A stretch of DNA of 39,771 nucleotides from Smithella sp. SCADC. Lineage in GTDB: Bacteria > Desulfobacterota > Syntrophia > Syntrophales > Smithellaceae. Below the pieces are notes generated by a model. It ran no database searches. It worked only from the letters and a program-made list of their open reading frames with translations, and was not told where the DNA came from. Both the position numbers and the translations under genes were made by a program. The DNA lies in the NCBI GenBank assembly GCA_000747625.2, contig JQDQ01000132.1:1-39771 (forward strand), in the 5' to 3' direction. This document shows positions 20,313 to 37,972 of this stretch, piece after piece; position 1 is the stretch's first letter, and every line of letters starts with the position of its first letter.

Positions 20313-20315
20313 TCG

Positions 20316-22814: not shown

Positions 22815-23188
22815 CCGAATATGCTGACCTTTCCGGCGCAAGTCCCGGCCTGATTCTGGTTCCCGGCAACAAGACGAAAACGCTCCAATATGCACCCGGC
22901 TACACTTACGGCAAGTATGTCATCGGTGATGTGGCCGATTACATGAACAATGCCGACATGGTTGAGGCGCTATCGGTCGGTACTCTCAGCCCGTCAGGAA
23001 TTTTCTACAATCTGGCGATGCACCCGGGAACGCAGAAGTGGAAACCGACGCACCGATACGGACAGATCACGGCCATTGATTACACGGCGCACACTTGCAG
23101 CGTGAGCTTGGAGGCGGCCTATGATTATCATCTGGACCTGAATCAGACCTACACGCTGACCGCGGTGCCGATCTGGTACATGACCTGA
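22811..23188 (+). CDS. Tail protein, N-terminal part before in-frame TGA
   Basis: 125 residues (to TGA 23186-23188), coupled to the adhesin by ATGA. The sequence GYTYGKYVIGDVADYMNNAD and later YGQITAIDYTAHTCSVSLEA, then YTLTAVPIWYMT, reads as a beta-barrel tail protein cut in mid-fold. The same frame stays open past the TGA for another 193 codons with sensible protein sequence (see the next entry). So this is the first half of one gene: recoded, suppressed or broken by mutation. Confidence 0.72.
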   Translation: MTEYADLSGASPGLILVPGNKTKTLQYAPGYTYGKYVIGDVADYMNNADMVEALSVGTLSPSGIFYNLAMHPGTQKWKPTHRYGQITAIDYTAHTCSVSLEAAYDYHLDLNQTYTLTAVPIWYMT

Positions 23189-23225
23189 CGGAGTTCAGCT
23201 TTCGTCGTCGGTGACGACGTTCTGA
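23186..23225 (+). promoter_or_regulatory. In-frame TGA with SECIS-like hairpin
   Basis: TGA 23186-23188 is followed by a hairpin: CGTCGTC (23203-23209), loop GGT, GACGACG (23213-23219), extended after an internal loop by TCAG/CTGA (23195-23198 with 23222-23225). The G-starting loop begins 21 bases after TGA. As I recall, bacterial SECIS elements need a G early in a small apical loop about 16-37 nt after UGA, with an upper stem of at least four pairs. All conditions seem met. Use as selenocysteine is not proven. Confidence 0.4.
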
Positions 23226-23770
23226 TTCAGTTTACAGACAACGATTGGAGTCAACCGATGGTTGTAGGATTCAAGGCAGACCCGAAACCGTGCGAGTGGG
23301 AGCCGTGGCATGGATCGCTGACGGCGTTTCATCCTTGGTATCATGTGGTTCTTAGAACAGAACAAGGTGCTCAGCCGTGGGACGTAATAAACAGCCAGTT
23401 GTATGTAAAATATACGCATAATGGAGTCCCGAATCAGTGGGGTACCCAGACCGGAGCGACAAGCAGGCTTGACCATCCGATTCAAAGTCCGGATGATCCG
23501 ATTAAGCTCGCAACCCATGTGAAATGGAAGGCGTCTGTAACTTTATCAGACGCCACGGTTCAATTTGCGATTTCTGGGTACTATTGGACTGCCAAAATAT
23601 ATCTAAGCGCGGCAGACAATGGGGTGGTGAAAACAGCCCGACTACTGGACTTCGCAAGCGGAAGCGGGTTTGACAACGTGATATGCGGTTTTTACATCAT
23701 GTCTCAAACTTCGGACGGCGTCGGCAGCGTCGAATGCGCCATTGACTACATAGATTTATACACGCCATAA
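23189..23770 (+). CDS. Tail protein, part after in-frame TGA
   Basis: In the same frame as the preceding gene. Codons 23189-23257 read RSSAFVVGDDVLIQFTDNDW and join directly to MVVGFKADPKPCEWEPWHGS. Phage tail proteins commonly have an AFxVGDxVxxxF segment followed by a VIGF(x)xxPKPC segment, so the join is natural. If translation restarts instead, ATG 23258 has GGAG eight bases upstream (170 residues). The C-terminal part is a beta-rich jelly-roll-like domain (FAISGYYWTAKIYLSAADNG, VECAIDYIDLYTP). Function: tail tip or fibre, inferred. Confidence 0.65.
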   Translation, partial: RSSAFVVGDDVLIQFTDNDWSQPMVVGFKADPKPCEWEPWHGSLTAFHPWYHVVLRTEQGAQPWDVINSQLYVKYTHNGVPNQWGTQTGATSRLDHPIQSPDDPIKLATHVKWKASVTLSDATVQFAISGYYWTAKIYLSAADNGVVKTARLLDFASGSGFDNVICGFYIMSQTSDGVGSVECAIDYIDLYTP

Positions 23771-23886
23771 AACGGAACCCGGCCGGGCGTGGGTGCTGGT
23801 GACACCCAAGCGGAAAAGGAAAACCGCCTGCCCGACCGAGCAAACAAGAGAAAACCGATATCATCAAAAAAAGGAAAGGTCAACCG

Positions 23887-24099
23887 GTGGACGCAACATC
23901 TCAAGTTATCCTGGGAATCGCAGGTCTGGTTATCGGCATACTTCAGACCGTCATCATCTCCATGCTGGCCGACATGAGACAGTCCATCGACCGTACATGG
24001 AAGCGCATCAATAATCATTATCATGAAGTCGAATGCAGCAATGTGGATTGTCGGACGCTGCGAACCGGCAACGTCATTCTGCCGAGGGGGTCGGAATGA
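23887..24099 (+). CDS. Small membrane protein, holin candidate
   Basis: 70 residues from GTG 23887, with AAAGGAAAGG about eight bases upstream. One N-terminal transmembrane helix (QVILGIAGLVIGILQTVIIS) precedes a positively charged, helical region (MRQSIDRTWKRINNH) and a Cys-containing tail. It begins the lysis region, directly before other small membrane proteins and the endolysin, so a holin or holin-like role is possible. Only one clear helix is visible. Confidence 0.55.
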   Translation: MDATSQVILGIAGLVIGILQTVIISMLADMRQSIDRTWKRINNHYHEVECSNVDCRTLRTGNVILPRGSE

Positions 24100-24254
24100 A
24101 GAAACTCATCATTTTAATAGTCCTGAACATCATAATTTGGGGTTTTGTCGGCTTCGAGCTGGCATATTACGAACCATGCTCCGCAAATCCACCACCGGCG
24201 CGGGTTTACGGGCCGACTCTCTCAGTGGCCCAAAATCAAACGATCTGCCTTTAA
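24096..24254 (+). CDS. Small secreted or membrane-anchored protein
   Basis: 52 residues from ATG 24096 (ATGA overlap with the previous gene). A KK start followed by a hydrophobic stretch LIILIVLNIIIWGFVGFEL forms a signal anchor; the remainder is Pro-rich with Cys. A short spanin-like or holin-accessory function is possible, but unproven. Confidence 0.5.
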   Translation: MKKLIILIVLNIIIWGFVGFELAYYEPCSANPPPARVYGPTLSVAQNQTICL

Positions 24255-24275
24255 CGCATATGTAGGTATTGCCCA

Positions 24276-24602
24276 ATGGATCAGAAATTGACCCTTAGAC
24301 AGAAGCAAAGCCTGTTCGCCCGGTTAATCTGCGAACTCATCCCGCATATCTTCGATCAGGGATATGAAGTCACGCTCGGCGATGCCTGGGCGAAGTCCGG
24401 CCATTGCAAAAACTCGAATCATTATATCCGGCTGGCTATCGACCTCAACCTTTTTAAGGACGGCAAATATTTGACGGATACGGAATCACACAAACCTTTC
24501 GGCGAATATTGGGAAAGCCTGCATCCGCTTTGCGCGTGGGGCGGGCGGTTCAGTCAACCGGATGGCAACCACTATTCACTGAAGCACAACGGGAGGGCGT
24601 GA
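24276..24602 (+). CDS. Endolysin, peptidase M15 family (VanY-like)
   Basis: 108 residues. Cleaves peptide bonds in murein at the end of infection. The zinc site of M15 peptidases is clear: H49 and D56 (SNHYIRLAIDLNLF), a catalytic E80 (WESL) and H99 (GGRFSQPDGNHYS). The length is typical for phage M15C endolysins such as T5 Lys (137). No signal peptide, so it needs a holin, which the small membrane proteins upstream may supply. Confidence 0.9.
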   Translation: MDQKLTLRQKQSLFARLICELIPHIFDQGYEVTLGDAWAKSGHCKNSNHYIRLAIDLNLFKDGKYLTDTESHKPFGEYWESLHPLCAWGGRFSQPDGNHYSLKHNGRA

Positions 24603-24638
24603 TGGACGAATTTATGATCTGGCTCTTTCGGTCTGGAA

Positions 24639-24785
24639 ATGGACGCCGTTGTGGGTCCGTGGTTGAAAGAAAACGCCATGACGATCAGCTTTGTGCTCGG
24701 TCTGCCCTATCTGGCTTATCGCTGGTGGTGGCGCAATATGGAGCGCATCCGGGCGCTGAAGGAGCGGGACGATGATCAGGGATAA
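24639..24785 (+). CDS. Small membrane protein, possibly truncated by frameshift
   Basis: 48 residues, MDAVVGPWLKENAMTISFVL then GLPYLAYRWWWRNMERI. The frame shows one membrane helix and a charged tail. A good start (ATG 24602, GGGAGG ribosome site, TGATG overlap with the endolysin) belongs to another frame that reads MDEFMIWLF and then loses sense. Joining the two frames near CTC TTT C at 24625-24631 gives a coherent 60-residue protein, so the gene is either frameshifted, recoded or mis-sequenced. It overlaps the next gene by 14 bases. Confidence 0.5.
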   Translation: MDAVVGPWLKENAMTISFVLGLPYLAYRWWWRNMERIRALKERDDDQG

Positions 24786-25191
24786 ATGTCTGTACTTCAA
24801 GCGGGGCTACAAGTATCAGGTTTCCCGCGATTACCGCATCAAGCTGGCCGTGATCCCGTTTGAACCGATATGTCTGCCTTTCGTTTTGATGGATACCGCC
24901 GGCGATACGATCATCAAGGCCGGGTATGCATGGAACGGAGCAAGCGGGCCGACCGTGGACACGCGCAACACGATGACCGGAAGCCTTGTCCATGATCTGC
25001 TTTATCAACTTATCCGGCTCGGATTGATTGATCCTAAATACAAGGCTTATGCCGACCGGATGTTGAAGGAAATCTGCATCGAGGATGGAATGAACCGGAT
25101 TCGGGCCGCCTGCTGGCTCTGGGCCGTCAAGACTTTCGGCGGCGCGTCCTGCAAGCCCGATGCCGAACCCAAGGAAGAGGTTGCACCATGA
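24772..25191 (+). CDS. DUF1353 family protein
   Basis: 139 residues. The pattern AGYAWNGASGPTVDTRNTM, then GSLVHDLLYQL and ADRMLKEICIEDGM, is that of DUF1353, a family common in phage lysis and tail regions with an unsolved role. The conserved D/H residues (T-x5-G-x3-HD and AD) look like a possible metal or hydrolase site. It is coupled to the lipoprotein gene downstream. Confidence 0.85.
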   Translation: MIRDKCLYFKRGYKYQVSRDYRIKLAVIPFEPICLPFVLMDTAGDTIIKAGYAWNGASGPTVDTRNTMTGSLVHDLLYQLIRLGLIDPKYKAYADRMLKEICIEDGMNRIRAACWLWAVKTFGGASCKPDAEPKEEVAP

Positions 25192-25421
25192 AATACTTAT
25201 ATTACTCATTCATCGCACTGGTATTAGTCATATTGTCCGGCTGTGCTTCCCTCACCTATGAGGCCGCCGACGGATCGCGGGTCACATACACGCGATTCAT
25301 GACCGGATCGGATTCCATCAAGGGGAAATTGCCGGGGGCGTCAATCGAATCCAAAGGCCAGAAGGCTATTGACCCTGAAACGCTTCAATCTCTCTTGCAG
25401 ATCCTTGGCGCTTCAAAATAG
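25188..25421 (+). CDS. Phage lipoprotein
   Basis: 77 residues. A KY start, hydrophobic core and LSGC lipobox (C19) indicate a lipoprotein signal peptide (MKYLYYSFIALVLVILSGCA). The mature part begins ASLTYEAADGSRVTYTRFMT. Similar short lipoproteins accompany DUF1353 genes in phages; an outer-membrane spanin-like role is possible. ATGA overlap with DUF1353. Confidence 0.8.
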   Translation: MKYLYYSFIALVLVILSGCASLTYEAADGSRVTYTRFMTGSDSIKGKLPGASIESKGQKAIDPETLQSLLQILGASK

Positions 25422-26019
25422 ATTCTGGGCACTCTGCCTAATCCTCCTGTGCGGATGTGGAACCATGCCGGATAAACCACGACACCCTGCCATTGAAACG
25501 CTGATCGGTGAGGCCACCGGCCGGCCGGATGCGGAAAAGCTGGAGATCGTGAACCAGTTTTTCAACGCCCGGATTCGATATGATACCGATTTGAATGTCT
25601 GGGGCCGCTCCGAGTATTGGGCAGGCCCCTATGAACTCATGCAACGCGGCGCCGGGGATTGTGAAGATTTTGCAATCGCCAAATATTTGACGCTCAGGGA
25701 TTCCGGTGTGGATGATTCCCGGCTCCAGATCGTCTATGGGCGGCTGGCTACCTCAAGAGAGAATCATATGATCCTTGCCTACTTCGGCGCGGTGATCCTG
25801 ATTCTGGATAATATCATGGATGCGATTTTCAGCCTACAGGAACGAAGCGACCTTGTGCCGGTCATGGGATTCAATCAATCCGGATTATGGATTTTCCGGC
25901 GCGGGGAACCGGAACTACTGACCCGGAACAGCAACCGTCTTTCGAGGTGGCGGGAATTGAGGGAAAGACTCATCGGCCAGGAGCCGCGGGAGATGGGGCC
26001 GCCGTCCGAGCGGCCTTAA
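25369..26019 (+). CDS. Transglutaminase-like cysteine peptidase, lipoprotein
   Basis: 216 residues if read from TTG 25369; the true start (TTG 25369 or a later TTG) is uncertain. A signal segment FWALCLILLCGCG contains a lipobox-like Cys. The catalytic triad of bacterial transglutaminase-like cysteine peptidases (BTLCP, LapG-like) is visible: C98 in GAGDCEDFAIAKY, H133 in RENHMILA, D147 in ILILDNIMD. Such periplasmic peptidases cleave surface adhesins or act at the envelope. In this phage it may help release or alter the lysogen's surface; that is inference. It ends the lysis region. Confidence 0.8.
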   Translation: MTLKRFNLSCRSLALQNRFWALCLILLCGCGTMPDKPRHPAIETLIGEATGRPDAEKLEIVNQFFNARIRYDTDLNVWGRSEYWAGPYELMQRGAGDCEDFAIAKYLTLRDSGVDDSRLQIVYGRLATSRENHMILAYFGAVILILDNIMDAIFSLQERSDLVPVMGFNQSGLWIFRRGEPELLTRNSNRLSRWRELRERLIGQEPREMGPPSERP

Positions 26020-26023
26020 AGGA

Positions 26024-26047
26024 AAGCCCGCCGATTAGGGCGGGCTT
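26024..26047 (+). terminator. GC-rich hairpin after late operon
   Basis: AAGCCCGCC and GGCGGGCTT form a 9-bp stem with a short loop (GATTAG), five bases after the preceding stop codon. Only a weak T-run follows, so it may pause or protect the late transcript rather than fully terminate it. Confidence 0.6.
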
Positions 26048-26096
26048 CTGTTGGAGGGAGTCTCTCGATTCCACCTTTTTGATTCATTCTTTTTTT

Positions 26097-26119
26097 TCCG
26101 GATGCTGGCAACATCCGGA
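26097..26119. repeat. 8-bp inverted repeat next to T-run
   Basis: TCCGGATG and CATCCGGA are separated by CTGGCAA. The eight-T run lies before, not after the hairpin on +, and on - the hairpin is followed by A-run. It is therefore not a classical terminator on either strand. Confidence 0.5.
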
Positions 26120-26197
26120 TGAACGAACCAAAGACATCATGTATCGAATACATAAACCGCCACTGTGTGGATGTCAACATTTTTTTGAAAGGATAAA

Positions 26198-26410
26198 ATG
26201 TTACCGACTGAAATTGAGTTGATCGACCGGGCCATTGAGATGATCCGGGCCGCGATAGTGCCGCCGCCTGAAACCTCCGAGGCTTTCCCTCTGGCCGCCG
26301 AAGAGGCTCTGGACCGGGGCCTATCGTATGTCTCTGGCCGGATCGCCGGGATAAGGCAGGAATATTTGCGGGACCACCGGTATGCGCGGGCGGGTGACAC
26401 GAAAATTTAA
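26198..26410 (+). CDS. Small phage protein, unknown function
   Basis: 70 residues with ribosome site AAAGGA before ATG 26198. Helical (EIELIDRAIEMIRAAI; FPLAAEEALDRGLSYVSGRI), without recognised motif. It stands alone between two hairpins and is followed by a strong terminator, so it is a separate transcription unit or the last gene of the late operon. Confidence 0.6.
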   Translation: MLPTEIELIDRAIEMIRAAIVPPPETSEAFPLAAEEALDRGLSYVSGRIAGIRQEYLRDHRYARAGDTKI

Positions 26411-26434
26411 TCCGATCCGAAAATAATTTGATGC

Positions 26435-26462
26435 GGGGTGCAATCGTTTTGCACCCTTTTTT
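26435..26462 (+). terminator. Intrinsic terminator
   Basis: GGGTGCAA (26436-26443) and TTGCACCC (26449-26456) make a perfect 8-bp stem around TCGTT and are followed directly by six T. This is the best terminator of the window and separates the late genes from the early operon. Confidence 0.88.
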
Positions 26463-26535
26463 ATTTCCGTTGCAATATCGAAGCGTTACGGTTCCCAAAC
26501 TTGATCGGACAAATTTTTTTCCATAAAAATTCACC

Positions 26536-26605
26536 CAAGCTAATATTTTAGCTTGACAGGCTAATTAATTAGGTTTAGGGTTTTAAAAAACTAAATAAAT
26601 TAGCT
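26536..26605. promoter_or_regulatory. Operator cluster and promoter before regulator gene
   Basis: An AT-rich gap with three CTAA...TTAG palindromes: CAAGCTAA-TATT-TTAGCTTG (26536-26555), CTAA-TTAA-TTAG (26561-26572) and CTAA-ATAAA-TTAG (26591-26603). The first two are 21 bp apart, two helical turns. A TTGACA -35 box (26553-26558) overlaps the first, and the second lies between it and a weak TAGGGT -10 (26576-26581). A repressor bound here would block the promoter. Confidence 0.7.
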
Positions 26606-26621
26606 CAAAGGAACAAATTAA

Positions 26622-26843
26622 ATGAACCCAAACGAAATCAAATCCGAACTAATAAAACTCGGTATCTCCCAAAAAGAGATTGCCCGCCGATGCGGAGTAG
26701 CAACCTCAACCGTCAATCAAGTCCTATCCGGTATCAGAGTTTCGGCCAAGATCCGAACCGAGATAGCCAGTGCAATCGGCAAACCGGCAAATGAAATTTG
26801 GCCGGACGATGTAACTCAGGCTAATAAGTTAGCCTGTAATTAA
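26622..26843 (+). CDS. Cro/C1-type helix-turn-helix regulator
   Basis: 73 residues. A single XRE-type domain: LIKLGISQKEIARRCGVATS followed by TVNQVLSGIRVSAKIRTEIA, with the helix-turn-helix at about 16-40; the residues resemble Ner/Nlp-type regulators. No C-terminal dimerisation or peptidase domain, so it is a short Cro- or Ner-like protein. The CTAA-N4-TTAG palindromes before it and inside its own 3' end suggest autoregulation. Ribosome site AAAGGA. It heads the early operon. Confidence 0.82.
   Translation: MNPNEIKSELIKLGISQKEIARRCGVATSTVNQVLSGIRVSAKIRTEIASAIGKPANEIWPDDVTQANKLACN
26817..26836. promoter_or_regulatory. Operator-like palindrome in end of regulator gene
   Basis: CAGGCTAA-TAAG-TTAGCCTG is a perfect 20-bp palindrome of the same CTAA-N4-TTAG type as the sites before the gene. 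It overlaps the last codons of the regulator and may serve as an additional operator for downstream genes. Confidence 0.65.
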
Positions 26844-26865
26844 TTTATTAATCAGGTTTAACGGC

Positions 26866-27021
26866 ATGTCAATTAAAAAAGTTAACTCAAACATAAAAAA
26901 TTGCAGCAACTGCCGAAAGTACAACACGCCCCGCTGCGAAGTCGTGAAGCAGGGCGAACAAACCGGCCCGGCTGACTGGTGCGCCGGGTATCGTCCAAAA
27001 CAAAAAAGGAGGGAGCCATGA
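26866..27021 (+). CDS. Small Cys-rich protein
   Basis: 51 residues, MSIKKVNSNIKNCSNCRKYN then TPRCEVVKQGEQTGP and DWCAGYRPKQ. Four cysteines (CxxC...C...C) suggest a small zinc ribbon. The last residues RREP are encoded by the ribosome site AGGAGGGAGCC of the next gene, and the stop overlaps its ATG. Confidence 0.6.
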   Translation: MSIKKVNSNIKNCSNCRKYNTPRCEVVKQGEQTGPADWCAGYRPKQKRREP

Positions 27022-27566
27022 AATGGACATCTGAAAAACCCAAACGGGCAGGATACTACTGGTATCTTGGCCCAGTCATGAAACGAGATTTTGACCGCAT
27101 TACAAACGGCTCAGATATACGAGATTGCACATGGGGGCCGATTATCGCCGGTGTCGGGATCTGCCTAAAAGAAATCCCGTCCGACGATGGGAATCCGCAC
27201 CATGAAAAAATGTGGGCGGATGGTCGAATCGTGGTTGAGTTTTACGGATCGACAGTGCGCCGGACCCTTGCCGAAATGCCGAGAGAAGTTCTTTGGGCTG
27301 GCCCGGTCACGCCTCCGGTATCAGATTGGGCGTGGCACCTGCAACCGAAAGATAAAATCCGGGCCAAGCCGTTCGAGGCCGAAATCGACGCGGCTGAAAT
27401 AACTGCCTGGTCGGAGGCTTGCCTGAAAGCCGAAGAATATTTCAACCCTGAGCGCGACGAATATCCGGACGGGTCATCAGATTACAGCCAATATAAGCAA
27501 AAAAATTTTTGCGGAACAATGAAAGGAGGATGCCATGAAACCGAAAACAGCAAGAAGGATTCTTAA
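27018..27566 (+). CDS. Phage protein, unknown function
   Basis: 182 residues from ATG 27018, with strong ribosome site AAGGAGGGAGCC. It begins MKWTSEKPKRAGYYWYLGPV, a pattern like DUF551-type proteins, and contains ...VLWAGPVTPPV... similar to their C-terminal signature. C-terminal half hydrophilic with no recognised motif. Function unknown. Confidence 0.6.
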   Translation: MKWTSEKPKRAGYYWYLGPVMKRDFDRITNGSDIRDCTWGPIIAGVGICLKEIPSDDGNPHHEKMWADGRIVVEFYGSTVRRTLAEMPREVLWAGPVTPPVSDWAWHLQPKDKIRAKPFEAEIDAAEITAWSEACLKAEEYFNPERDEYPDGSSDYSQYKQKNFCGTMKGGCHETENSKKDS

Positions 27567-27693
27567 AAAGAGAGCGTGGGAGATTGCGGAGCGGAATATC
27601 AACGGCGACAAGAAATACAAGAAGTGGCTCGGAAGGCTTGAGGCCAAGTGCATCAAAACGCTGGAAAGAGACTCGGCAAGGAGGGAGCCATGA
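27535..27693 (+). CDS. Small basic helical protein
   Basis: 52 residues, MKPKTARRILKKRAWEIAER then NINGDKKYKKWLGRLEAKCI. Strongly basic and helical, possibly nucleic-acid-binding. Starts in the end of the previous gene after AAAGGAGG. Like the gene at 26866 it ends in RREP read through the ribosome site of its neighbour. Confidence 0.5.
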   Translation: MKPKTARRILKKRAWEIAERNINGDKKYKKWLGRLEAKCIKTLERDSARREP

Positions 27694-27905
27694 GATCAAT
27701 TTACAAGTGCGCGTGTGGGAATGTGTCACTGACCGAAAACGGCAACAGATGTCCGGTATGCGGAGACCTGCTGGTTAGGTTCGATTTTCCGTCCATCGAA
27801 CCGAGGCCGTCAAGAGTTGATGCCCGGCGGGTTCTGTATGGGCTTGGCGTGGGTGCGTTGATTGCCGGCATTGCGGTGGTGATCTTTTTGGGATGTTTGA
27901 TGTAA
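27690..27905 (+). CDS. Zinc-ribbon membrane protein
   Basis: 71 residues from ATG 27690 (ATGA overlap). N-terminal ribbon CACG and CPVCG (about 7-24), then a C-terminal transmembrane helix (VLYGLGVGALIAGIAVVIFL). A small membrane-anchored zinc protein; function unknown. Confidence 0.6.
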   Translation: MRSIYKCACGNVSLTENGNRCPVCGDLLVRFDFPSIEPRPSRVDARRVLYGLGVGALIAGIAVVIFLGCLM

Positions 27906-27930
27906 CTGAAACCATTGAAGGGGGCAAGGC

Positions 27931-28767
27931 ATGAAAGAATTTGATGAGGCGTTTGAAAGAATAATCCAAAACCTGAATTTTCAGTTGAAAGCTTATGATG
28001 GCGTTACTCAGCTGATCGCCAAGATCAAGCAACGATCCATCGGCCTGCCCGGTTCCGAAGATGACGGAACAAGCTGCGACACCGGACTGAAGGGCGTCGG
28101 CAAGGAAGCCGGATTGCTCACCGTCAAGGGGCGATATGGCCGGGACATCGAAAAGGAGCTGCCGCAATTCGATATCTGGGAACAGTGGATGAAGGACATT
28201 CCCGGCATCGGCCCTATCCTTGCGGCAAAACTGATCATCCATTTCAACTATAAATTCGTGTCGATTTGCCAGAAGTGCGGAGAGGATCTGGAAAAGACCG
28301 AGGGCGCGATGATCTGCACCGGATGCGGGGAATCGTCCAAGGATGACGGCGTTTTGAAATATCGCCTTTCTCAGCGGGACTTTCCGACAATATCAAAATG
28401 GTGGGCATTCATGGGCCGCCATACCGTTGACGGCAACATGCCGAAGCGAGCTAAGGGAGTTGTTGCAAATTGGAGTACACCGGGCCGGACGCTCGGTTTT
28501 CACATTGGCGATCAGTTCAACCGGCAAAAAGAAGATCATCCCTATAAAGCCTTCATGCTCAGTCGGAAAGCCAAACATCAAAAGAACCATCCTGATTGGT
28601 CAAAGGGTCACGTTCACAATGCGGCCCGGAATGAGGCCGTCAAATTGTTCCTGTCTCACTTCTGGCACGTGTCAAGAACCCTTGCCGGGAAGCCCGTATC
28701 TGACCCCTATTCCGGTGTCATCATGGGCCATACCAACATCGTCAAACCGTTCTATTTTGCCGGGTAG
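27931..28767 (+). CDS. tas: Tas-like protein (IS110/Nop-type, no nuclease)
   Basis: 278 residues. Predicted helical N terminus (1-37 and 73-88); helix-hairpin-helix IPGIGPILAAKLI at 90-102, as in the C-terminal domain of IS110/IS116 transposases; zinc ribbon C113, C116, C129, C132; C-terminal helices with NAARNEAVKLFLSHFWHVSR. No RuvC/DEDD or HNH motif. The stop lies four bases before a 36-bp unit array with two 9-nt spacers per unit. As I recall, TIGR-Tas systems pair a Nop/IS110-related Tas protein with such arrays, and TasA types lack nuclease; I therefore infer a guide-RNA-bound DNA-binding protein. Assignment is by motif and context, not by search. Confidence 0.68.
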   Translation: MKEFDEAFERIIQNLNFQLKAYDGVTQLIAKIKQRSIGLPGSEDDGTSCDTGLKGVGKEAGLLTVKGRYGRDIEKELPQFDIWEQWMKDIPGIGPILAAKLIIHFNYKFVSICQKCGEDLEKTEGAMICTGCGESSKDDGVLKYRLSQRDFPTISKWWAFMGRHTVDGNMPKRAKGVVANWSTPGRTLGFHIGDQFNRQKEDHPYKAFMLSRKAKHQKNHPDWSKGHVHNAARNEAVKLFLSHFWHVSRTLAGKPVSDPYSGVIMGHTNIVKPFYFAG

Positions 28768-28771
28768 AGTC

Positions 28772-29338
28772 TGAATCCTATGGATCATTTGCGAGCCATT
28801 CATCCATTGAAACCCACGGACTCTTTGCGAGCCAGAAAAGTCATGAAACCCATCGGTAGACTGCGAGCCAAATCGCCATTGAAACCCAGGGCTGGAATGC
28901 GAGCCATTGAACCAATGAAGCCCCAGAAGTCGCTGCGAGCCAGTGACGCCATGAAACCTATTGTATGATTGCGAGCCAGAGCGTGAATGAAACCCATCTC
29001 TATGTTGCGAGCCAGTATGGACCTGAAACCCATGATCCGGATGCGAGCCATTAATCCACTGAAACCTATATATATTGTGCGAGCCAGAAGGGCAATGAAC
29101 CCCATCGGCAAGCTGCGAGCCACATGGATAATGAACCCCAATCAGGATCTGCGAGCCATTGAAAAGCTGAAACCCAAACGGCAAGTGCGAGCCACTGGAC
29201 CACTGAAACCTATCTTCGATATGCGAGCCATGAACTTTTTGAAACCCAATGTTGAAATGCGAGTCAATATGACCCTGAACCCCATCGTTGTATTGCGAGC
29301 CAATACCCTTTTGAAACCCATTCTGTCTGTGCGAACCC
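28772..29338 (+). repeat. TIGR-like array: 15 units of 36 bp, two 9-nt spacers each
   Basis: Each unit is TGCGAGCCA, nine unique bases, TGAAACCCA, nine unique bases. Fifteen full units occupy 28790-29329, preceded by a degenerate half-unit (TGAATCCTA, 28772-28780) and ended by TGCGAACCC (29330-29338). Phase is kept without indels over 567 bp. The first repeat is exact in 14 of 15 units; the second in 8, with variants TGAAACCTA, TGAACCCCA and TGAAGCCCC. All 30 spacers differ. Codon third positions of the repeats do not vary, and the + frame has TGA stops in units 5 and 6, so conservation is of nucleotides. The plan matches 36-nt tigRNAs as I recall them. Confidence 0.85.
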
Positions 29339-29360
29339 CAAACCAAAAAGGAGCATGAAA

Positions 29361-29993
29361 ATGAAAGAGAAACAAGACCTGCAAAAGATGACCATTGACG
29401 AAATCGAAAGCCGGATAGACGGCAACATTGCCAAGGCCAGAACCGCCGATCAATACATGATCGAAAGTCTGATCTACCTCAAGACCTCCGGGCGCTACAA
29501 GGAAAACAAGCGGTACGAACGGGCCACCTTTTACGATTATGTGCAAGACCGCTTCAACCTGACCCGGACGAAATACATGGAGATGCAGGCGGCTTATATC
29601 CGGTTTCCGAAGGAGTGTAAGAGCGAGGGCGTCGGCTTTGTGGCGCGGGTCATGCGGCGCTGTTCATCCCAGAACGCGGCGAAGGCGATGGCGCACATCA
29701 ACCGGGCGAAAGCGGGAGCAAAGAAAGAGCTGAAGTTCGAGAAGATTGAGGCGATTCTGGCCGATCATACCCCGAAGATTGAGAAAAAGTTCACCGATTA
29801 CAAGGCCATGTACGCGGCTGAAGTTGCGGCCCATGCCAAAACGAAAGAGGCATTGAAGGCGGCGATGGCACGGAATGCCGAACTCGAAGAGCAGAATGAA
29901 AAGCTGAAACTGACGGCATCCCGGTTCAAGGATATTCGGGCGATCCTGCAAGCCCCGGTTCCCAGAAAAGCGGCGGCACAGGCAACAGCATAA
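29361..29993 (+). CDS. Coiled-coil phage protein
   Basis: 210 residues from ATG 29361 (ribosome site AAGGAG at 29347; an in-frame ATG at 29355 is too close). N-terminal helices (MTIDEIESRIDGNIAKARTA; YERATFYDYVQDRFNLTRTK) look like a DNA-binding domain seen in plasmid- or phage-encoded proteins; C-terminal half is coiled coil (AAHAKTKEALKAAMARNAEL). It lies between the guide-like array and recombination genes; either module could be its partner. Confidence 0.6.
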   Translation: MKEKQDLQKMTIDEIESRIDGNIAKARTADQYMIESLIYLKTSGRYKENKRYERATFYDYVQDRFNLTRTKYMEMQAAYIRFPKECKSEGVGFVARVMRRCSSQNAAKAMAHINRAKAGAKKELKFEKIEAILADHTPKIEKKFTDYKAMYAAEVAAHAKTKEALKAAMARNAELEEQNEKLKLTASRFKDIRAILQAPVPRKAAAQATA

Positions 29994-30021
29994 CCCAAAT
30001 CAGAAGTGGAGGAAGTAACAG

Positions 30022-30921
30022 ATGGACAACGCACAATGGCTTGAAGAACGGCGCAAAGGAATCGGTGGGGCAGATATAGCAGCCATCCTCGGCCTGTCAC
30101 CCTGGAAGAGCGCCTTCCAAGTCTACCAGGAAAAGCGCGGAGAGGTCGACGGCTTCAAGGGCAATGACCTCACCGACTGGGGCAAGCGCATGGAGCCCAC
30201 CATCAGACAATGGTACTCAGACACAACCGGCCACCCGGTCCGAGTGCCTGACAAGATCCTCTATCACTCGAAACACCCTTTCATGCTGGCCTCGCTGGAC
30301 GGCTTCACCGATGAGCCGCGGGGCGTTGAAATCAAGACCGCCCGGTCTGGCCGGGAATGGGGCGAACCCGGAACGAATGAGATTCCAGACGATTACATGT
30401 TGCAAGTCCAGCACTACATGGCCGTAACCGGATTCCCGGTTTTCGATGTCCCTGTCTCCATCGCCGGGGCGTGGCCGGTCATTTATGAGGTTCCGTCAGA
30501 CCCGGAATTGCAGGAAATGATCATCGATGCCTGCGCCGATTTCTGGAAGCGGGTCGTTGACGGCAACCCACCCGAGCCAACCACTTACGCCGATGCCGTG
30601 CAAAGATTCGGGAAATCCGAAGCGCAGGGCGTTGTTGTTGCCGGCAAAGCGGAGGTGCAAGCCGTTGAAGATCTGCGAGAGGTCAAAGCCAAACTGGACG
30701 CGCTCAAGGCCGAAGAGGAAGATCTGAAAGGCCGGATCATCATTGCTCTGGGCGACACCGGCGACACCCTGACCGATGAGGCCGGAAGCCCACTCGTTAC
30801 CTACCGGATGAGCAAGGGCCGGAAATCGTTCAACTCGAAATTATTCCAGACGGATCACCCGGATCTTTACGCCGAATATCTGATCACCGGCGAAGGGTCC
30901 AGAAGATTCCTTATCAAGTAA
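30022..30921 (+). CDS. YqaJ-type phage exonuclease (lambda Exo-like)
   Basis: 299 residues. Resects double-strand ends 5' to 3' for phage recombination. N-terminal signature WLEERRKGIGGADIAAILGL; WGKRMEPTIRQWY; catalytic D93 (LDGF), E103 and K105 (VEIKTA), then DYMLQVQHYMAVTGF. This is the PD-(D/E)xK core of YqaJ recombinases. A C-terminal coiled coil (about 212-245) is followed by a small domain (VTYRMSKGRKSFNSKLFQ). It works with an annealing protein, probably the next gene. Confidence 0.92.
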   Translation: MDNAQWLEERRKGIGGADIAAILGLSPWKSAFQVYQEKRGEVDGFKGNDLTDWGKRMEPTIRQWYSDTTGHPVRVPDKILYHSKHPFMLASLDGFTDEPRGVEIKTARSGREWGEPGTNEIPDDYMLQVQHYMAVTGFPVFDVPVSIAGAWPVIYEVPSDPELQEMIIDACADFWKRVVDGNPPEPTTYADAVQRFGKSEAQGVVVAGKAEVQAVEDLREVKAKLDALKAEEEDLKGRIIIALGDTGDTLTDEAGSPLVTYRMSKGRKSFNSKLFQTDHPDLYAEYLITGEGSRRFLIK

Positions 30922-30948
30922 CCAAACCCAACAAGGAGGGCAGAGAAA

Positions 30949-31827
30949 TTGGAAACCAAATCAGCAGCAATCTTTGACGCGCCAGTAGCGACTCAACCGA
31001 AGCAGTCACAGGCGCTTGTGGACATCGAACAGCATCGCGCAATGGCAGAGGTTCAGAGCGCCATCGTTCTTGCAAAGAAATTCCCCCGGAATCAGATCGA
31101 AGCAATGGACAGGATCTTGACCGCTTGCCAGCGTCCGGCATTGGCAGAGCAAGCCCTTTATACTTACGCCAGAGGCGGCACGGATATATCCGGCCCCTCC
31201 ATCCGCATGGCCGAAGCCATCGCCCAGAATTGGGGCAACATTCAATTCGGCGTAAAAGAACTCGAACAGCGCAACGGTGAAAGCACTGTCCAGACATACG
31301 CTTGGGACATGGAAACCAACACGAAGCAAGAAAAGACCTTTCAGGTCAAGCATGAACGCTACACGAAAAAGGGCAAGTATGCCCTGCAAGATCCCCGCGA
31401 CATCTACGAAATGACAGCCAATCAGGGAGCGCGGCGGCTTCGTGCCTGCATCCTTGGAGTGATTCCCGGCGATGTGATCGAGGCCGCCGTGGCTCAGTGC
31501 GAACAGACATTGAAAGCCAAGGCCGACACCGGCCCGGATGCCATCAAGAAAATGGTTGAGTCGTTCGAGGCCTACAAGGTCACGAAGGAGCAGATCGAAA
31601 AGCGCATCCAGCGCCGACTCGATTCGATCACCCCCGCTCAGGTCGTGAGTCTGAGGAAGATTTACAACTCGCTCAAGGACGGAATGAGTTCACCCGCCGA
31701 CTGGTTCGAGGTTGTTACACCGGAAGAGAAAGACCCCGCCGCATCCCTCAAGGACAAGATCAAAGCCAAGCAAGCCCCTATCGTCATGCCTGACGGCTCC
31801 GTTCTCAAGCCGGAGGTGGGAGCGTAA
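30949..31827 (+). CDS. Probable single-strand annealing recombination protein
   Basis: 292 residues. TTG 30949 lies 11 bases after GGAGG; no ATG is near. The core (LAEQALYTYARGGTDISGPS, then MAEAIAQNWGNIQFGVKELE and QGARRLRACILGVIPGDVIE) is a pattern frequent in phage proteins encoded after YqaJ exonucleases; I take it to be the annealing partner (RecT-like role). C terminus is charged and partly repetitive. The family is recalled from context, so the role is an inference. Confidence 0.65.
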   Translation: METKSAAIFDAPVATQPKQSQALVDIEQHRAMAEVQSAIVLAKKFPRNQIEAMDRILTACQRPALAEQALYTYARGGTDISGPSIRMAEAIAQNWGNIQFGVKELEQRNGESTVQTYAWDMETNTKQEKTFQVKHERYTKKGKYALQDPRDIYEMTANQGARRLRACILGVIPGDVIEAAVAQCEQTLKAKADTGPDAIKKMVESFEAYKVTKEQIEKRIQRRLDSITPAQVVSLRKIYNSLKDGMSSPADWFEVVTPEEKDPAASLKDKIKAKQAPIVMPDGSVLKPEVGA

Positions 31828-32282
31828 TGAGCCTCGCACACTGGCAGACCATCATAGAGCGAATAAATCAGACCCATGGAACCCAATTCGGCAGCGACGA
31901 TGTTGCTCCGATGCTGAGATTCCTCGTTGAGAAGCTCGGAAACCATAGAAAGGCCTCAGATGAAGTGGGCGTCACAAGGGCGACTGTATCATTCAGGCTC
32001 AGGCGTCCAGATATCAGCCCGAAGCCAAGGGCCATTAGGGTGATACCGAAGCCAGCCGTGGCGCCTATCGACCTTGCCAAGTGGCGGCAATCAGGAATGC
32101 ACCGCCCGCCCTGCGAAGCGTGTCCGATTGGCAGAGGCACCAAGAACCGGCCCGAATGTGAGAACTGCGTGGCCCGGATCGAATATGCCAACGCTCAGGC
32201 CGGGATGCCAGCCATACCGGGCGCTGATTCGATGCAGCAGGTTCAGTATATGCGGCAAACAAGGATGAGCGCGTGCATCTAA
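31827..32282 (+). CDS. DNA-binding protein with HTH and Cys motif
   Basis: 151 residues. N-terminal helix-turn-helix (HRKASDEVGVTRATVSFRLR, about 40-60), a proline-rich linker, then a Cys pattern (CEACPIGRGTKNRPECENCV) that could bind zinc. Start ATG overlaps the previous stop (TAATG). Probably a transcription regulator or a DNA-structure-binding protein of the recombination module. Confidence 0.6.
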   Translation: MSLAHWQTIIERINQTHGTQFGSDDVAPMLRFLVEKLGNHRKASDEVGVTRATVSFRLRRPDISPKPRAIRVIPKPAVAPIDLAKWRQSGMHRPPCEACPIGRGTKNRPECENCVARIEYANAQAGMPAIPGADSMQQVQYMRQTRMSACI

Positions 32283-32659
32283 GCGAGCACTTCATCATAA
32301 GGTGGCAACGCCGTGTAGGCTCGTTGCCGACCCCCGAGCTTGTCAAGGCCCTGATCCGTGGCGCTGTGGTGCTGCAACGTGGTGTCATCGGCGTGGATGA
32401 ATGCGGCGACAGGTTCGTTGCGCTGTCAATGTACTGGGTGCCTGAGATTGATGCGGTACTCAAGATCAACGACATGGGGTGGCCGCACCGGGCTATTACG
32501 GTTATCACGCCGGATGTACTGAATAAGAAAAGAGTTCCCAATTTGGGAACCGATACCAAAGGAGTGAGGAATGGAAAAAGAATCAATTTTCGGAAAACAC
32601 ACATTTTCGGAGGAAGAGAAGAAAAAGATTGCTCAACAACTGGCCCAGGCTGTCAGTGA
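32273..32659 (+). CDS. Phage protein, unknown function
   Basis: 128 residues from GTG 32273 (10-base overlap with previous gene). HLSEHFIIRWQRRVGSLPTP, then GDRFVALSMYWVPEIDAVLK, a mixed alpha/beta fold. Its last 30 codons overlap the next gene in another frame, so that tail is probably non-conserved. Function unknown. Confidence 0.5.
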   Translation: MHLSEHFIIRWQRRVGSLPTPELVKALIRGAVVLQRGVIGVDECGDRFVALSMYWVPEIDAVLKINDMGWPHRAITVITPDVLNKKRVPNLGTDTKGVRNGKRINFRKTHIFGGREEKDCSTTGPGCQ

Positions 32660-32936
32660 TAAGAGCGAGGCGGACGAAGAGCTGAAGGCCATCAAGGCCG
32701 ATTTCAAGAGCAAGATCGAATTGGCCGACTCACAGATCAACGGATATGCCCGCAAGTTGCAATCCGGATTCGAGATGCGGTCGATTGAGTGCAACGTCAT
32801 CCGCGATTACGAGGCGAAGACAATCACATATCTTGCCATCGATGACGGTAGAACAATCGATATCAGGCCCATGAGACAGTCCGACCTGCAACGGCCCATC
32901 ATTGAGGCAGAGCGGGCCGATGCAACTATCAATTAA
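32571..32936 (+). CDS. Phage coiled-coil protein
   Basis: 121 residues with GGAGTGAGG ribosome site. The first 60 residues are coiled coil (EEKKKIAQQLAQAVSDKSEA), followed by a short beta-rich segment (FEMRSIECNVIRDYEAKTIT, DIRPM). No known domain. It ends the run of recombination genes. Confidence 0.6.
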   Translation: MEKESIFGKHTFSEEEKKKIAQQLAQAVSDKSEADEELKAIKADFKSKIELADSQINGYARKLQSGFEMRSIECNVIRDYEAKTITYLAIDDGRTIDIRPMRQSDLQRPIIEAERADATIN

Positions 32937-33096
32937 GCTCCACCGCCCGGCACCGAGGCGGCAATATCGGGCCATGCCCCTCCATCCCCGGCAACCAGAA
33001 CGGGAAAAGTAGCGGCTCGAAGCCTGCGAATCTGGCAACAGCGGCAAGGCCTCCGGGTGCCCTTTCCCGGGGGCTGAACCGCCAAAATGAAAGAGG
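32937..33096 (+). other. Structured GC-rich gap, possible RNA element
   Basis: A 160-base non-coding gap in an otherwise dense operon. It contains CCGCC/GGCGG (32943 region), GGGAAA/TTTCCC, and a longer stem GCCTCCGGG/CCCGGGGGC around 33048-33075. No obvious ORF, terminator T-run or promoter. It may be a structured RNA or a remnant. Confidence 0.4.
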
Positions 33097-33102
33097 ATGA
33101 AG

Positions 33103-33300
33103 ATGATTCTTGATAAACGAGAACTCATTGCCTTCTTTGAGGAAAATGTCCCGGAAAATGGGTATGCCGAAATTGAAGGCTCAATTACCCCCAAGAATGC
33201 ATGTTCAGTTTGCGGAAGCACTACCAAACAGCCAATGACGCTTCCATTGTATGCCGAAGAAATTGAAGTGAGGGTCACCTTTAGAAAAAGGATTGGATGA
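33103..33300 (+). CDS. Small protein with CxxC motif
   Basis: 65 residues from ATG 33103 (GAGG six bases upstream; ATG 33097 is in frame but too close). Contains CSVCGS and a beta-rich C terminus (EEIEVRVTFRKRIG). No function recognised. Overlaps the next gene by four bases. Confidence 0.5.
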   Translation: MILDKRELIAFFEENVPENGYAEIEGSITPKNACSVCGSTTKQPMTLPLYAEEIEVRVTFRKRIG

Positions 33301-33554
33301 CAATGGACCCCCAAGAGACAATTACAGCGATCCACGACCGCCTCGAAAGAGCCATCGGCGGCGTCTGTAAGATGGAAGATAACACGGTGGAGTCAATCGA
33401 AAAGGCGCACGATATCATTGAAGATATCAACAGCTCAATACTCATGCTTGACGGCCTCAGATTTGCCATCCGGCGCAAATATCACCGGGTGTCGGTGTGG
33501 CCTGAACCTAACGAGCAGGAGCTGAAGAACAAGAGAAATGGGTGGACGGATTGA
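33297..33554 (+). CDS. Small helical phage protein
   Basis: 85 residues; ATG 33297 overlaps the previous stop; ATG 33303 also possible. Helical (ETITAIHDRLERAIGGVCKM; SIEKAHDIIEDINSSI). No recognised domain. Confidence 0.5.
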   Translation: MTMDPQETITAIHDRLERAIGGVCKMEDNTVESIEKAHDIIEDINSSILMLDGLRFAIRRKYHRVSVWPEPNEQELKNKRNGWTD

Positions 33555-33584
33555 AAACGAAACCAACAACGGAAGGATGAGGAA

Positions 33585-33995
33585 ATGGCAGACACTTTAG
33601 AATTTAAGATCAGCGAAGGCTTGATAAAGCCGATTATCGAAACGAAGATTAACGAGGCGATTGTTGCCTCTATGGGCGGCCACGAAAGGCTAATCTCCGA
33701 TATGGTGGCAATGTATATGAATCAGAAGGTTGATTCCAACGGCAACACGACCACCTATAGCAGCGGAAAACCGAGGCTCGCGTGGCTCTCGGAAACGATG
33801 ATTAACGAGGCAATAAAAAACACTCTCCAGGAGTACCTGAAAAGCAAGCAGGAGTTTTTACAAAAAGAGTTCGAGAGATTTTTTAACAGCAAAAAGGGGT
33901 CAAGTCAGATCGTGAAGGCTATGCAAGAGGGGCTATGTGCTGGCCTTGGAGAGTGTTGGAGAGTATCAATCAAGTTTACCCCGCCGGAGAAGTGA
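33585..33995 (+). CDS. Phage protein, unknown function
   Basis: 136 residues, ribosome site AAGGATGAGG. Helical with charged repeats (LSETMINEAIKNTLQEYLKS, KQEFLQKEFERFFNSKKGSS). No known domain. Position between small genes gives no clue to its job. Confidence 0.55.
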   Translation: MADTLEFKISEGLIKPIIETKINEAIVASMGGHERLISDMVAMYMNQKVDSNGNTTTYSSGKPRLAWLSETMINEAIKNTLQEYLKSKQEFLQKEFERFFNSKKGSSQIVKAMQEGLCAGLGECWRVSIKFTPPEK

Positions 33996-33998
33996 GCA

Positions 33999-34163
33999 AT
34001 GAAAACCTGCACCCACAAAAACAAAGTCGATCTGTCCCAGGGTCTCGGGCCTGATCGGCATTATTACTGCCCGAATTGCAAGTGCCATTGGTACGCTGGG
34101 CGGTTCTGGACTCGGGTTGAGTGGGATGAATATGTTAACGAAATTAACGAGGTGTTGGGATGA
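33999..34163 (+). CDS. Small zinc-ribbon protein
   Basis: 54 residues, MKTCTHKNKVDLSQGLGPDR followed by HYYCPNCKCHWYAGRFWTRV. C/H and CPNC pairs suggest a zinc ribbon. Stop overlaps next start (ATGA). The pattern is common in phage early genes; function unknown. Confidence 0.6.
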   Translation: MKTCTHKNKVDLSQGLGPDRHYYCPNCKCHWYAGRFWTRVEWDEYVNEINEVLG

Positions 34164-34402
34164 TAGAAAGAACCATAAGAACGCATATCAAGCCAAGCCC
34201 GGACGAATTAGCATTTTGTTTTTGCAATGTATCGTCAGAGGAGCAGGCGATGTTCTTCAATGAGGTGGCGAGGATAGTAGAAAACTGGGATAGGCCATTC
34301 CCGTTTCAACTCGAAGCTCTCAGGCAGGAAAAATGCCTAACGCGGGAGGGCCGGGAAGTAATGAGGTTGATAGGGGATTACGGGTACGAGGGCGGAATAT
34401 AA
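34160..34402 (+). CDS. Small phage protein, unknown function
   Basis: 80 residues, MIERTIRTHIKPSPDELAFC with a helical middle (AMFFNEVARIVENW). No domain recognised. Coupled at both ends to neighbours. Confidence 0.55.
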   Translation: MIERTIRTHIKPSPDELAFCFCNVSSEEQAMFFNEVARIVENWDRPFPFQLEALRQEKCLTREGREVMRLIGDYGYEGGI

Positions 34403-34579
34403 ATGGACGATCTCGACCGGGCGCAAGAGGTATCAGCGGAAATCCTATCGGAGAGTCTGAAACTCCGCAAGCCGACCGGCCCGGTTGAGACCGGCTTTTG
34501 CCTGAATTGCGGCGAACCGTTACCGGCCGGGCGTCGATGGTGTGATGCTTTTTGCCGGGATGAGTGGGAGGGGAAATGA
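34403..34579 (+). CDS. TraR/DksA-type zinc-finger protein
   Basis: 58 residues, MDDLDRAQEVSAEILSESLK then TGFCLNCGEPLPAGRRWCDA and FCRDEWE. The C4 zinc finger (CxxC...CxxxC) with the acidic N terminus resembles small TraR/DksA-like proteins that bind RNA polymerase and adjust promoter use. Too short for a full DksA coiled coil, so its ability to act as one is unsure. Confidence 0.65.
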   Translation: MDDLDRAQEVSAEILSESLKLRKPTGPVETGFCLNCGEPLPAGRRWCDAFCRDEWEGK

Positions 34580-34818
34580 AGATCGAAACAGAGTTCAGTA
34601 TTGGTGATGAGGTGTGGGCTATCTGTAGAGGAACAAAAACTATCGGAAAATATGAGGCAATCGGGCCTAAAAAGATCGATTACATTGAGGTGTGTGTTGA
34701 TGGCGATATCGTTCAAGAAAGTTACGAATGCAAAGGTTTGAGCGGGTTTTATTTTCCTGATGAGCTTTTCAAGACCCGCGAGGCCGCCGAAATCACAGCG
34801 GAGGCGCTGAATAAATGA
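34576..34818 (+). CDS. Small phage protein, unknown function
   Basis: 80 residues from ATG 34576 (GGGAGGGG upstream). FSIGDEVWAICRGTKTIGKY suggests an SH3/KOW-like beta barrel; C terminus helical. Overlaps both neighbours by four bases. Confidence 0.6.
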   Translation: MKIETEFSIGDEVWAICRGTKTIGKYEAIGPKKIDYIEVCVDGDIVQESYECKGLSGFYFPDELFKTREAAEITAEALNK

Positions 34819-35072
34819 ATGGGATGGAGAAAATGGAAGATAAAATAATCGATGGTGGGTGCGCGTTTCCAAATAAAGAGGAAGTAAGCGGCATATATGA
34901 CAATCGGTTTATCGATCATAAAGGCATGACTCTCCGTGACTATTTCGCCGGGCAAGCCTTGGTTGGAATACTTTCGAGTCTGCCAAGTGATTCGCGGTGT
35001 GGCATGGCTGATATTGTCAACGAGGCATACTGGTATGCTGAAGGTATGATCGAAAGAAGGGGCGCTGAATAA
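34815..35072 (+). CDS. Small phage protein (GMTLRDYFA type)
   Basis: 85 residues. The phrase KGMTLRDYFAGQALVGIL is frequent in phage proteins of unknown function; the remainder (MADIVNEAYWYAEGMIERRG) is helical. Stop is adjacent to the next start. Confidence 0.6.
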   Translation: MNGMEKMEDKIIDGGCAFPNKEEVSGIYDNRFIDHKGMTLRDYFAGQALVGILSSLPSDSRCGMADIVNEAYWYAEGMIERRGAE

Positions 35073-35543: not shown

Positions 35544-35668
35544 AAACATTCTGGCTCGCAACCTCTGTGGTGATGGCGATCTTTTGGGGATACCATCAAA
35601 ACGTGCCCGCTTCGACGGGATGGGCTATGGCGGCACTGTGTGAATTGGAGGGCATACTCAGACAATGA
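35540..35668 (+). CDS. Short membrane peptide
   Basis: 42 residues, MKTFWLATSVVMAIFWGYHQ and following NVPASTGWAMAALCELEG. A signal-anchor-like start. ATGA overlap with RuvC gene and with the next frame. Function unknown. Confidence 0.45.
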   Translation: MKTFWLATSVVMAIFWGYHQNVPASTGWAMAALCELEGILRQ

Positions 35669-37961: not shown

Positions 37962-37972
37962 GAGGCAAGGCT

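Follow-up and report, generated by a model that had tools for sequence, protein, structure and literature searches.

A TIGR-like guide array between a TasA-like gene and a conserved partner gene in a likely prophage of Smithella sp. SCADC

Contig JQDQ01000132.1 of the Smithella sp. SCADC assembly GCA_000747625.2 (positions 1–39,771, forward strand; the whole of this 39,771-nt stretch is referred to as the window) corresponds to contig C129 in a metagenome-assembled genome (MAG) of 3.19 Mb and carries, among phage genes, a tandem interspaced guide RNA (TIGR) array that lies between a tas gene and a second gene, here called the partner. As described in the main text of Faure et al. 2025 (PMC12045711), TIGR arrays are built of two alternating repeats that start with UG and end with CCA, separated by 9-nt spacers and adjoining a Tas gene, and they typically open and close with truncated edges. 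The definition used here was two alternating repeats of 8–12 nt with 9-nt spacers, and the window array has this form. An earlier interpretation from the letters only (the sequence-only reading) had placed an array at 28772–29338. The features of the locus are as follows.

27931–28767, +: tas gene, 278 aa, TasA-like, coiled coil and Nop domain (sequence and fold)
28267–28326, +: zinc ribbon (Cys 113, 116, 129 and 132) within the Nop domain; four Cys in 26/26 full-length proteins
28759–28789, +: degenerate first TIGR unit, in register with the array
28759–28762, +: truncated edge GCCG of the first unit, in register
28763–28771, +: spacer GGTAGAGTC of the first unit, spanning the tas stop codon
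28772–28780, +: loop variant TGAATCCTA of the first unit
28781–28789, +: second spacer TGGATCATT of the first unit
28790–29329, +: 15 full TIGR units (direct parsing)
29330–29334, +: truncated 3′ edge repeat TGCGA; comparable array ends in related loci L002, L003, L005 and L006
29345–29353, +: ribosome-binding site of the partner gene, purine-rich AAAAAGGAG; same layout in L002, L003 and L005
29355–29993, +: partner gene, 212 aa (start perhaps 29361), present in 26/29 loci

Direct parsing bore out the regular array: 15 full 36-nt units (edges starting at 28790+36k, k = 0–14), 15/15 without indels, each in the order edge TGCGAGCCA, spacer A, loop TGAAACCCA, spacer B. The 30 spacers are each 9 nt long and all different, and identity at a lag of 36 is 0.60 over 540 nt (≤0.34 when the bases of the window were shuffled 50 times). 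The repeats had also been called strict, which holds for the nearly constant edges (TGCGAGCCA in 14/15, with a single variant, TGCGAGTCA, at 29258) but not for the loops, where TGAAACCCA is exact in just 8/15 and positions 5, 8 and 9 vary. The box D motif UG starts 15/15 edges and 15/15 loops, while box C (CCA) ends 14/15 edges and 11/15 loops, the remainder ending in TCA, CTA or CCC. The array seems to begin one unit before the first full one, at 28759, giving 15 full units plus one degenerate unit, and ends with TGCGA at 29330–29334. The same kind of beginning, GCCA followed by 9 nt and a loop, is also legible in L003, L005 and L006. The array thus begins at the tas stop codon and runs up to the ribosome-binding site of the partner gene, a layout that fits co-transcription with the upstream tas gene.

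The tas product is closest to characterised Tas proteins by both sequence and fold. As a single sequence it matches TasR (PDB 9mty, E 6.9e-24) and TasH (PDB 21kl, E 1.2e-4); a profile of 11 Tas sequences, including that of the window, matches 9mty at E 1.8e-38 and 21kl at E 6.9e-10. An AlphaFold2 model (mean predicted local distance difference test score, pLDDT, 81.5) retrieved TasR first in a Foldseek search of PDB (E 5.8e-9), and structural alignment by VIA gave Z 20.6 for TasR (root-mean-square deviation, rmsd, 2.8; 199 residues), Z 19.9 for TasH (rmsd 3.3; 215 residues) and Z 14.4 for IS110 (rmsd 4.0; 185 residues). TasR is thus the nearest solved protein; because the model aligns only with TasR (9mty) residues 112–322, beginning at the coiled coil, the N-terminal RuvC part is absent from the window protein. 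TasH (PDB 21kl, 9w04) likewise shares the Nop domain and coiled coil, but is farther by sequence and is marked by an HNH domain that was not found in the window Tas. IS110 transposases (PDB 9t56 and 8wt6; Z 14.4 and 14.2) have a similar Nop-like RNA-binding part, whereas the window protein has no transposase catalytic domain by Pfam and adjoins a guide array instead of one bridge RNA. Searches of PHROGs and NCBIfam returned only transposase- or Tas-named models at significant E-values. The NCBIfam model NF052498 (TIGR_Tas_endo) matches 11/11 sequences of the Tas profile; in 148 genomes of the phylum it has, besides the window Tas, one match above its cut-off (a 325-aa frame in G201), all remaining matches being ≤50.2 bits. 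These remaining ones are probably IS110-type transposases, judging from length and copy number, and matches also occur in 3/14 control genomes; for these reasons, matches under the cut-off call for a second test.

Pfam identified no nuclease domain in Tas, neither RuvC (the mark of TasR) nor HNH (the mark of TasH), which places the protein in a TasA-like type, for which RNA-guided binding rather than cutting would be expected. Weak Pfam zinc-ribbon matches cover residues 111–138. The nuclease-free state is common to the whole group of 26 full-length proteins, which span 264–297 aa over the match.

Relatives were collected by scans of IMG/VR and by a GTDB genome scan, which gave one match (a Candidatus Methanoperedens MAG contig), and their Tas proteins have 36–65% identity. 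From 36 loci, near copies (L025, L027 and L035), L036 and L040–L042 were excluded, further contig copies having been removed earlier, leaving a set of 29 (27 IMG/VR contigs, the archaeal MAG contig and the window); L018, L037 and L038, with split or cut Tas, are within the 29 loci but outside the 26 full-length proteins. A 36-nt dual-repeat array was extracted from 29/29 loci, for a total of 336 units, with the repeat consensus set by hand for 16/29 after inspection of the arrays. Tas lies beside the array in 29/29, although the loci were mostly found via Tas; the array begins ≤117 nt past the end of the Tas match in 28/29, and in L018 an earlier scan found a short array there. Among 672 spacers (665 of exactly 9 nt), only six 9-mers occur twice, five of the six inside one locus. 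The related phages thus retain the repeats and differ in their spacers, as the sequence-only reading had anticipated. Between near-identical phages no spacer turnover was seen in the four pairs compared: the compared stretches are identical in window/L008, L015/L014 and L024/L025, and a single spacer base sets the L026 array apart from that of L027. A search with the Tas profile through 99 genomes from the genus, family and order of the window gave a match only in the window's own genome.

Across the 336 units the commonest alternatives to box C are CGA (edge) and CTA (loop). With pairing positions that we assigned on the basis of the main text of PMC12045711, edge positions 3–6 are C-G in 299 units, T-A in 18, T-G in 7 and unpaired in 12, and loop positions 2–7 are G-C in 268, T-A in 16 and wobble or A-T in 10. 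The C-G to T-A edge swap is the consensus of L019 and L031, and such swaps recall the covarying pairs that the same text reports for TasR repeats, with which the window group also shares the UG/CCA motifs, an A-rich loop repeat and, likely, an extra edge pair. Mapped onto a Tas tree of 26 proteins, the repeat types, taken together, cluster: the eight edge types require 8 changes, against a minimum of 7 and a mean of 11.5 in shuffles, of which 0/200 were as low. Five of the eight edge types are single rows in the tree.

Several loci depart from the common plan. L019, the contig binned as Candidatus Methanoperedens (archaea), has the same Tas, array and partner, with U-A replacing the C-G edge pair. 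In L016, L017, L022, L029, L030, L034 and L039, three to four separate array stretches surround one tas (upstream, between and downstream). L036 carries fragments of Tas on each strand, and the match to Tas in L018 is divided between two frames, oddities that reflect either assembly faults or broken genes. L040–L042 carry distant Tas relatives (24–26% identity) and repeats of 35- or 37-nt period, with no partner match, and perhaps belong to another TIGR group.

Among the gene groups compared, the partner alone accompanies tas with such constancy. When open reading frames (ORFs) of at least 60 aa were compared across 12 loci (using only positions 20001–39771 of the window), Tas was common to 12, the partner to 11 and every other group to ≤6. 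The partner is found in 26/29 loci, or 25/28 without L049, itself found via the partner scan. It is missing from L028 (which ends 141 nt past the Tas match), L037 (which begins inside Tas) and L013, the sole locus of these with both flanks present (~10 kb each side). In 23/26 an array separates tas from the partner, and the partner is upstream in L033 and L034. A scan with the partner alignment identified 16 IMG/VR loci (some of them copies), 16/16 on Tas-encoding contigs. Among 50,697 records of named phages the partner has no counterpart by this kind of match. For 26 partner members, the strongest family listed is of coiled-coil type (e.g. ZapB, E 5.2e-5, 2/26 members), and no ParB family is among the 25 listed of 110 Pfam families.

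The partner model (pLDDT 86.7; predicted template modelling score 0.56) has a helical domain and a long C-terminal helix (coiled coil). It gave no Foldseek match at E 0.001, and its best match in a viral fold library is an unnamed protein (E 0.015). The top VIA rows are unrelated coiled coils (Z 5.3 and 5.1), followed by three SopB entries (Z 4.8, rmsd 4.4, 107 residues; Z 4.6, rmsd 3.7, 101 residues; Z 4.6, rmsd 4.0, 105 residues) and two VirB entries (Z 3.2). SopB and VirB rows, both of ParB-family DNA-binding domains, cover partner residues 27–145; rows for TAL-effector and AAA proteins stand beside the SopB rows at Z ~2.5 to 4. The VIA listing re-examines Foldseek matches, and further families may lie outside it. 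Profile-profile support (hhalign) for a ParB assignment was discarded, reversed SopB and Tas both lying near the SopB score (132.7, 139.8, 140.6). From linkage alone, the constant company of the partner suggests a part in the effector or in use of the bound complex.

Spacers look more like natural DNA than random letters. Trinucleotide odds of spacers and surrounding phage DNA correlate at r 0.81 and 0.84 (two strands), compared with r −0.05 (standard deviation 0.15, maximum 0.30 in 200) for shuffled spacers; for equally many 9-mers sampled from phage DNA, r was 0.91 (standard deviation 0.02), so that the spacers come near but stay below. In a post hoc comparison, spacers were AT-richer than their own phage in 22/29 loci (−5.2 points on average; p 2e-4 by Wilcoxon test, with related and hence not fully independent loci). 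Window spacers have 43.3% G+C versus 53.2% for the phage (p 0.0012), and do not depart from the ~43% of a 170-kb MAG sample (p 0.90; with 5,047 N bases in the sample, the true value is ~44%). Source DNA that is host-like or AT-rich could account for the low G+C content, but so could AT-biased drift.

Possible targets were sought in the order expected from the cut geometry described in the main text of PMC12045711, namely spacer A, then spacer B in reverse complement, with a gap of 0–2. When the window was searched with its own guides, 3 places matched at ≥15/18 in this order (permuted pairs 1.7), and the other orders gave 5 (permuted 2.0), 2 (2.4) and 0 (2.0), with one match of 16 in each of the first two. 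The 29 loci searched against themselves showed no enrichment of self-targets in the expected order (31 places at ≥15/18, permuted 24.3; 1 at ≥16, permuted 3.0), and two of the remaining orders gave 21 (24.7) and 21 (24.3). The same-strand order, A then B, gave 38 places at ≥15/18 versus 24.7 permuted and 4 at ≥16 versus 1.0, an unpredicted excess that may be chance. All units against 536,401 locus bases gave 3 places at 17 (two being the same palindromic place) and 0 at 18, and 1, 0 and 1 places at 17 in the other orders. Outside the loci, 8 of the 15 full guides were searched individually. Guides 1 and 2 had no exact match in 99 related genomes (0/99 each), while exact matches of two guides in IMG/VR (4 and 2 contigs), obtained without a control, were taken as chance. 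In the window's own genome (≤2 mismatches, no gap) four guides gave 0, 0, 0 and 1 match, and the backward control 1 match for one of the four; all 15 guides against 170,619 own-genome bases (5,047 N) gave 9 places at ≥15, versus 6.7, and none at 16.

Array anatomy, together with an upstream Tas protein recognised by sequence and by fold, supports the identification of a real array in a TIGR-Tas locus, as had first been proposed, and TIGR-Tas is an already known kind of system. With high confidence, the best overall explanation is a TIGR-TasA system of a temperate tailed phage, in which tas, array and partner would form a single operon-like block. By analogy with described relatives, TasA dimers would bind array RNA and a host RNase would cut it into ~15 tigRNAs of 36 nt, each using its two 9-nt spacers to read, by base pairing, the two strands of a single 18-bp DNA site; strong homology stands behind this tigRNA part, the literature on relatives being the source for both RNA processing and two-strand targeting. 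The box motifs of both repeats, CCA for C and UG for D, would be held by the two Nop domains. Because the window Tas has no nuclease, TasA would most likely bind and bend its target and act as a roadblock, blocking transcription or replication of DNA of the host or of a rival element, a target identity that we infer. The partner, possibly a DNA-binding coiled-coil protein, may act with TasA at the bound site, a role likewise conjectural. Homology and fold of Tas, absence of the nuclease, the zinc ribbon and linkage of the partner, like the array itself, are observations from these loci; the nuclease-free state, the ribbon and the partner did not figure in the sequence-only reading.

Several results weigh against this explanation. 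Tas of the window scores 97.0 bits (E 1.5e-27) with NF052498 and so misses the cut-off of 100 bits by 3. The 2–7 pair is broken in 42/336 loops and 11/336 edges; taken singly, repeat types show only modest clustering on the Tas tree (74, 20 and 14 of 500 shuffles were as low), and the edge type of the window sits among TGCGAGCGA relatives. No terminator-like site is listed between the tas gene and 30200, in which typical TIGR arrays differ. The scans, which covered part of the possible target space, found no target. For the partner, no convincing family emerged by sequence among the best 25 listed, coiled-coil families being nearest, and the fold match behind a ParB-like reading of its model is weak, with Z values common among helical proteins.

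The strongest competing explanation, possible but on balance not favoured, assigns the effector role to the partner as a separate ParB-like module: the TasA-tigRNA complex would mark a site at which the partner loads and spreads or tethers DNA, in place of a roadblock by TasA alone, with segregation, silencing or help to the integrase as envisaged roles. The tie between partner and tas in 26/29 loci whose gene neighbourhoods are largely different, the presence of SopB and VirB among the fold rows over residues 27–145 and the C-terminal coiled coil are all in keeping with such a module, and the main text of PMC12045711 describes tasParB, a parB-like gene in operons with tasA. Against it, the Z of 4.8 for SopB could be attained by any helical bundle and is exceeded by unrelated coiled coils (5.3, 5.1), no ParB family is found by sequence among those listed, and L013 has no partner despite ~10 kb on both sides. 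Like tasParB as described in that text, the partner is a second gene in a tasA operon with arrays up, down or between, and its coiled coil parallels the C-terminal dimerisation predicted for tasParB; tasParB loci differ in having 10-nt repeats and HHpred matches to ParB, including CTPases, whereas the window group, compared by description, has 9-nt repeats and a partner that no listed ParB family matches. The partner may belong to the tasParB family or to another. A bolder version, which we regard as rather unlikely, is a TIGR subtype that the main text of PMC12045711 does not describe, in which zinc-ribbon TasA is genetically bound to a dedicated coiled-coil ParB-like partner, with guides taken from host-like DNA directing the loading of a partition-like protein on host or rival DNA; if true, this would be RNA-guided placement of a ParB-type protein and not RNA-guided cutting.

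Decay of a TIGR locus into a non-functional remnant, with the nuclease lost and the loops drifting, is improbable: 7/15 loops are off consensus and the first unit is degenerate, but the loop changes fall at positions 5, 8 and 9, of which 5 and 8 vary across the 336 units too, 15/15 units are in register with the tas reading frame intact, and the nuclease is missing from all 26 full-length proteins (264–297 aa). Still less probable is that the array is a set of protein-coding repeats, or of DNA-binding sites (operator, iteron) in which the spacers are neutral filler. Long ORFs do traverse the array on both strands, minus-strand array ORFs of different loci match pairwise (groups C6, C7 and C9), and joined arrays are short of stops (z between −3.1 and −3.6 for three of the six frames). 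However, a period divisible by 3 and common repeats yield open, mutually similar frames; stops are deficient in all six frames, even those closed by repeat stops, and TAG and CTA are the scarcest spacer triplets, so that none of them stands out. Of the 29 loci, 18 have stops in the minus-strand frame that stays open across the window array, in keeping with the sequence-only reading, which put selection on nucleotides and not on protein. Tas adjoins the array in every locus of the set, mostly found via Tas, and exact 9-nt spacing with box C/D motifs is a TIGR trait. A protein-coding array was rejected on the six-frame stop counts and spacer triplet counts. A CRISPR or mini-CRISPR array, to which alternating repeats, unique spacers and a PADLOC Cas12f model grazing the zinc-ribbon part of Tas (E 0.04) might point, is barely credible and was ruled out by anatomy and the Tas match, since there are two 9-nt repeats with 9-nt spacers rather than a single 25–36-nt repeat with like-sized spacers (a contrast already drawn from the letters, which stands), no Cas family in a Pfam scan of 8 proteins around the array and a Nop-domain protein encoded next to it.

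Under the preferred TIGR-TasA explanation, the locus shares with the TasA type, as described in the main text of PMC12045711, dual UG...CCA repeats, 9-nt spacers, the 36-nt unit, truncated end edges, an adjoining Nop protein without nuclease and a phage setting, with arrays of its relatives both up- and downstream. It differs in the zinc ribbon inside the Nop domain and in an array that, with no terminator listed, meets the partner's ribosome-binding site. Neither "zinc" nor "ribbon" appears as a word in that main text, and because both zinc ribbon and partner are near-universal in the group, the combination is deemed a variant; if table S1 or fig. S14 of PMC12045711 already includes the group, the window is just a new member. 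TIGR-Tas was described in 2025, and in the main text its authors call TasA function, spacer origin and natural targets open. The window locus leads to 29 related loci and 336 guide units, its conserved second protein is a testable candidate for the missing effector, and the spacers offer a statistical hint on their origin, a trinucleotide signature of natural DNA with a tendency to be AT-richer than the carrier phage.

Phage domains in the window include a GpA-type terminase, lambda-type portal, capsid, minor tail and integrase N-terminal domain. Positions 1–62 (−) resemble the 3′ part of a transfer-messenger RNA (tmRNA) (29.2 bits, E 2.8e-4, under the gathering score), and of the first 30 window bases 29 are identical to the 3′ terminus of the tmRNA that contig C184 of this MAG carries, so the sequence is likely that of a prophage with the tmRNA gene as attachment site, the contig being broken there. 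A terminase search for sister phages of the window found no relative, and megablast of window 1–25000 against named phages found no similar phage DNA. Elsewhere in the window, a phage RuvC-like gene (35073–35543; Pfam E 1.2e-4) lies distant from tas, and a phage gene at 25369–26019 encodes a transglutaminase-like cysteine proteinase domain (Peptidase_C93, E 2.4e-13).

Two named phages carry more distant Tas relatives. Microcystis phage Mvi-JY20 (PP438412.1, ~22100–22470; L063:3900-4260) has a TIGR-like array lacking annotation, whose edge (ATGCGAGCCA) and loop (ACGAAACCCA) repeats measure 10 nt and whose spacers measure ~8 nt. It closes with a truncated edge followed by a hairpin resembling a terminator, and adjoins a distant Tas relative (32% over 44%) annotated as a hypothetical protein. 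In Arthrobacter phage Talia1610 (PQ559666.1; L064:2450-3824), gene 255 encodes a distant Tas relative (33% over 36%), and recurring palindrome-like blocks upstream of it are, by eye, possibly an array of stem-loop type.
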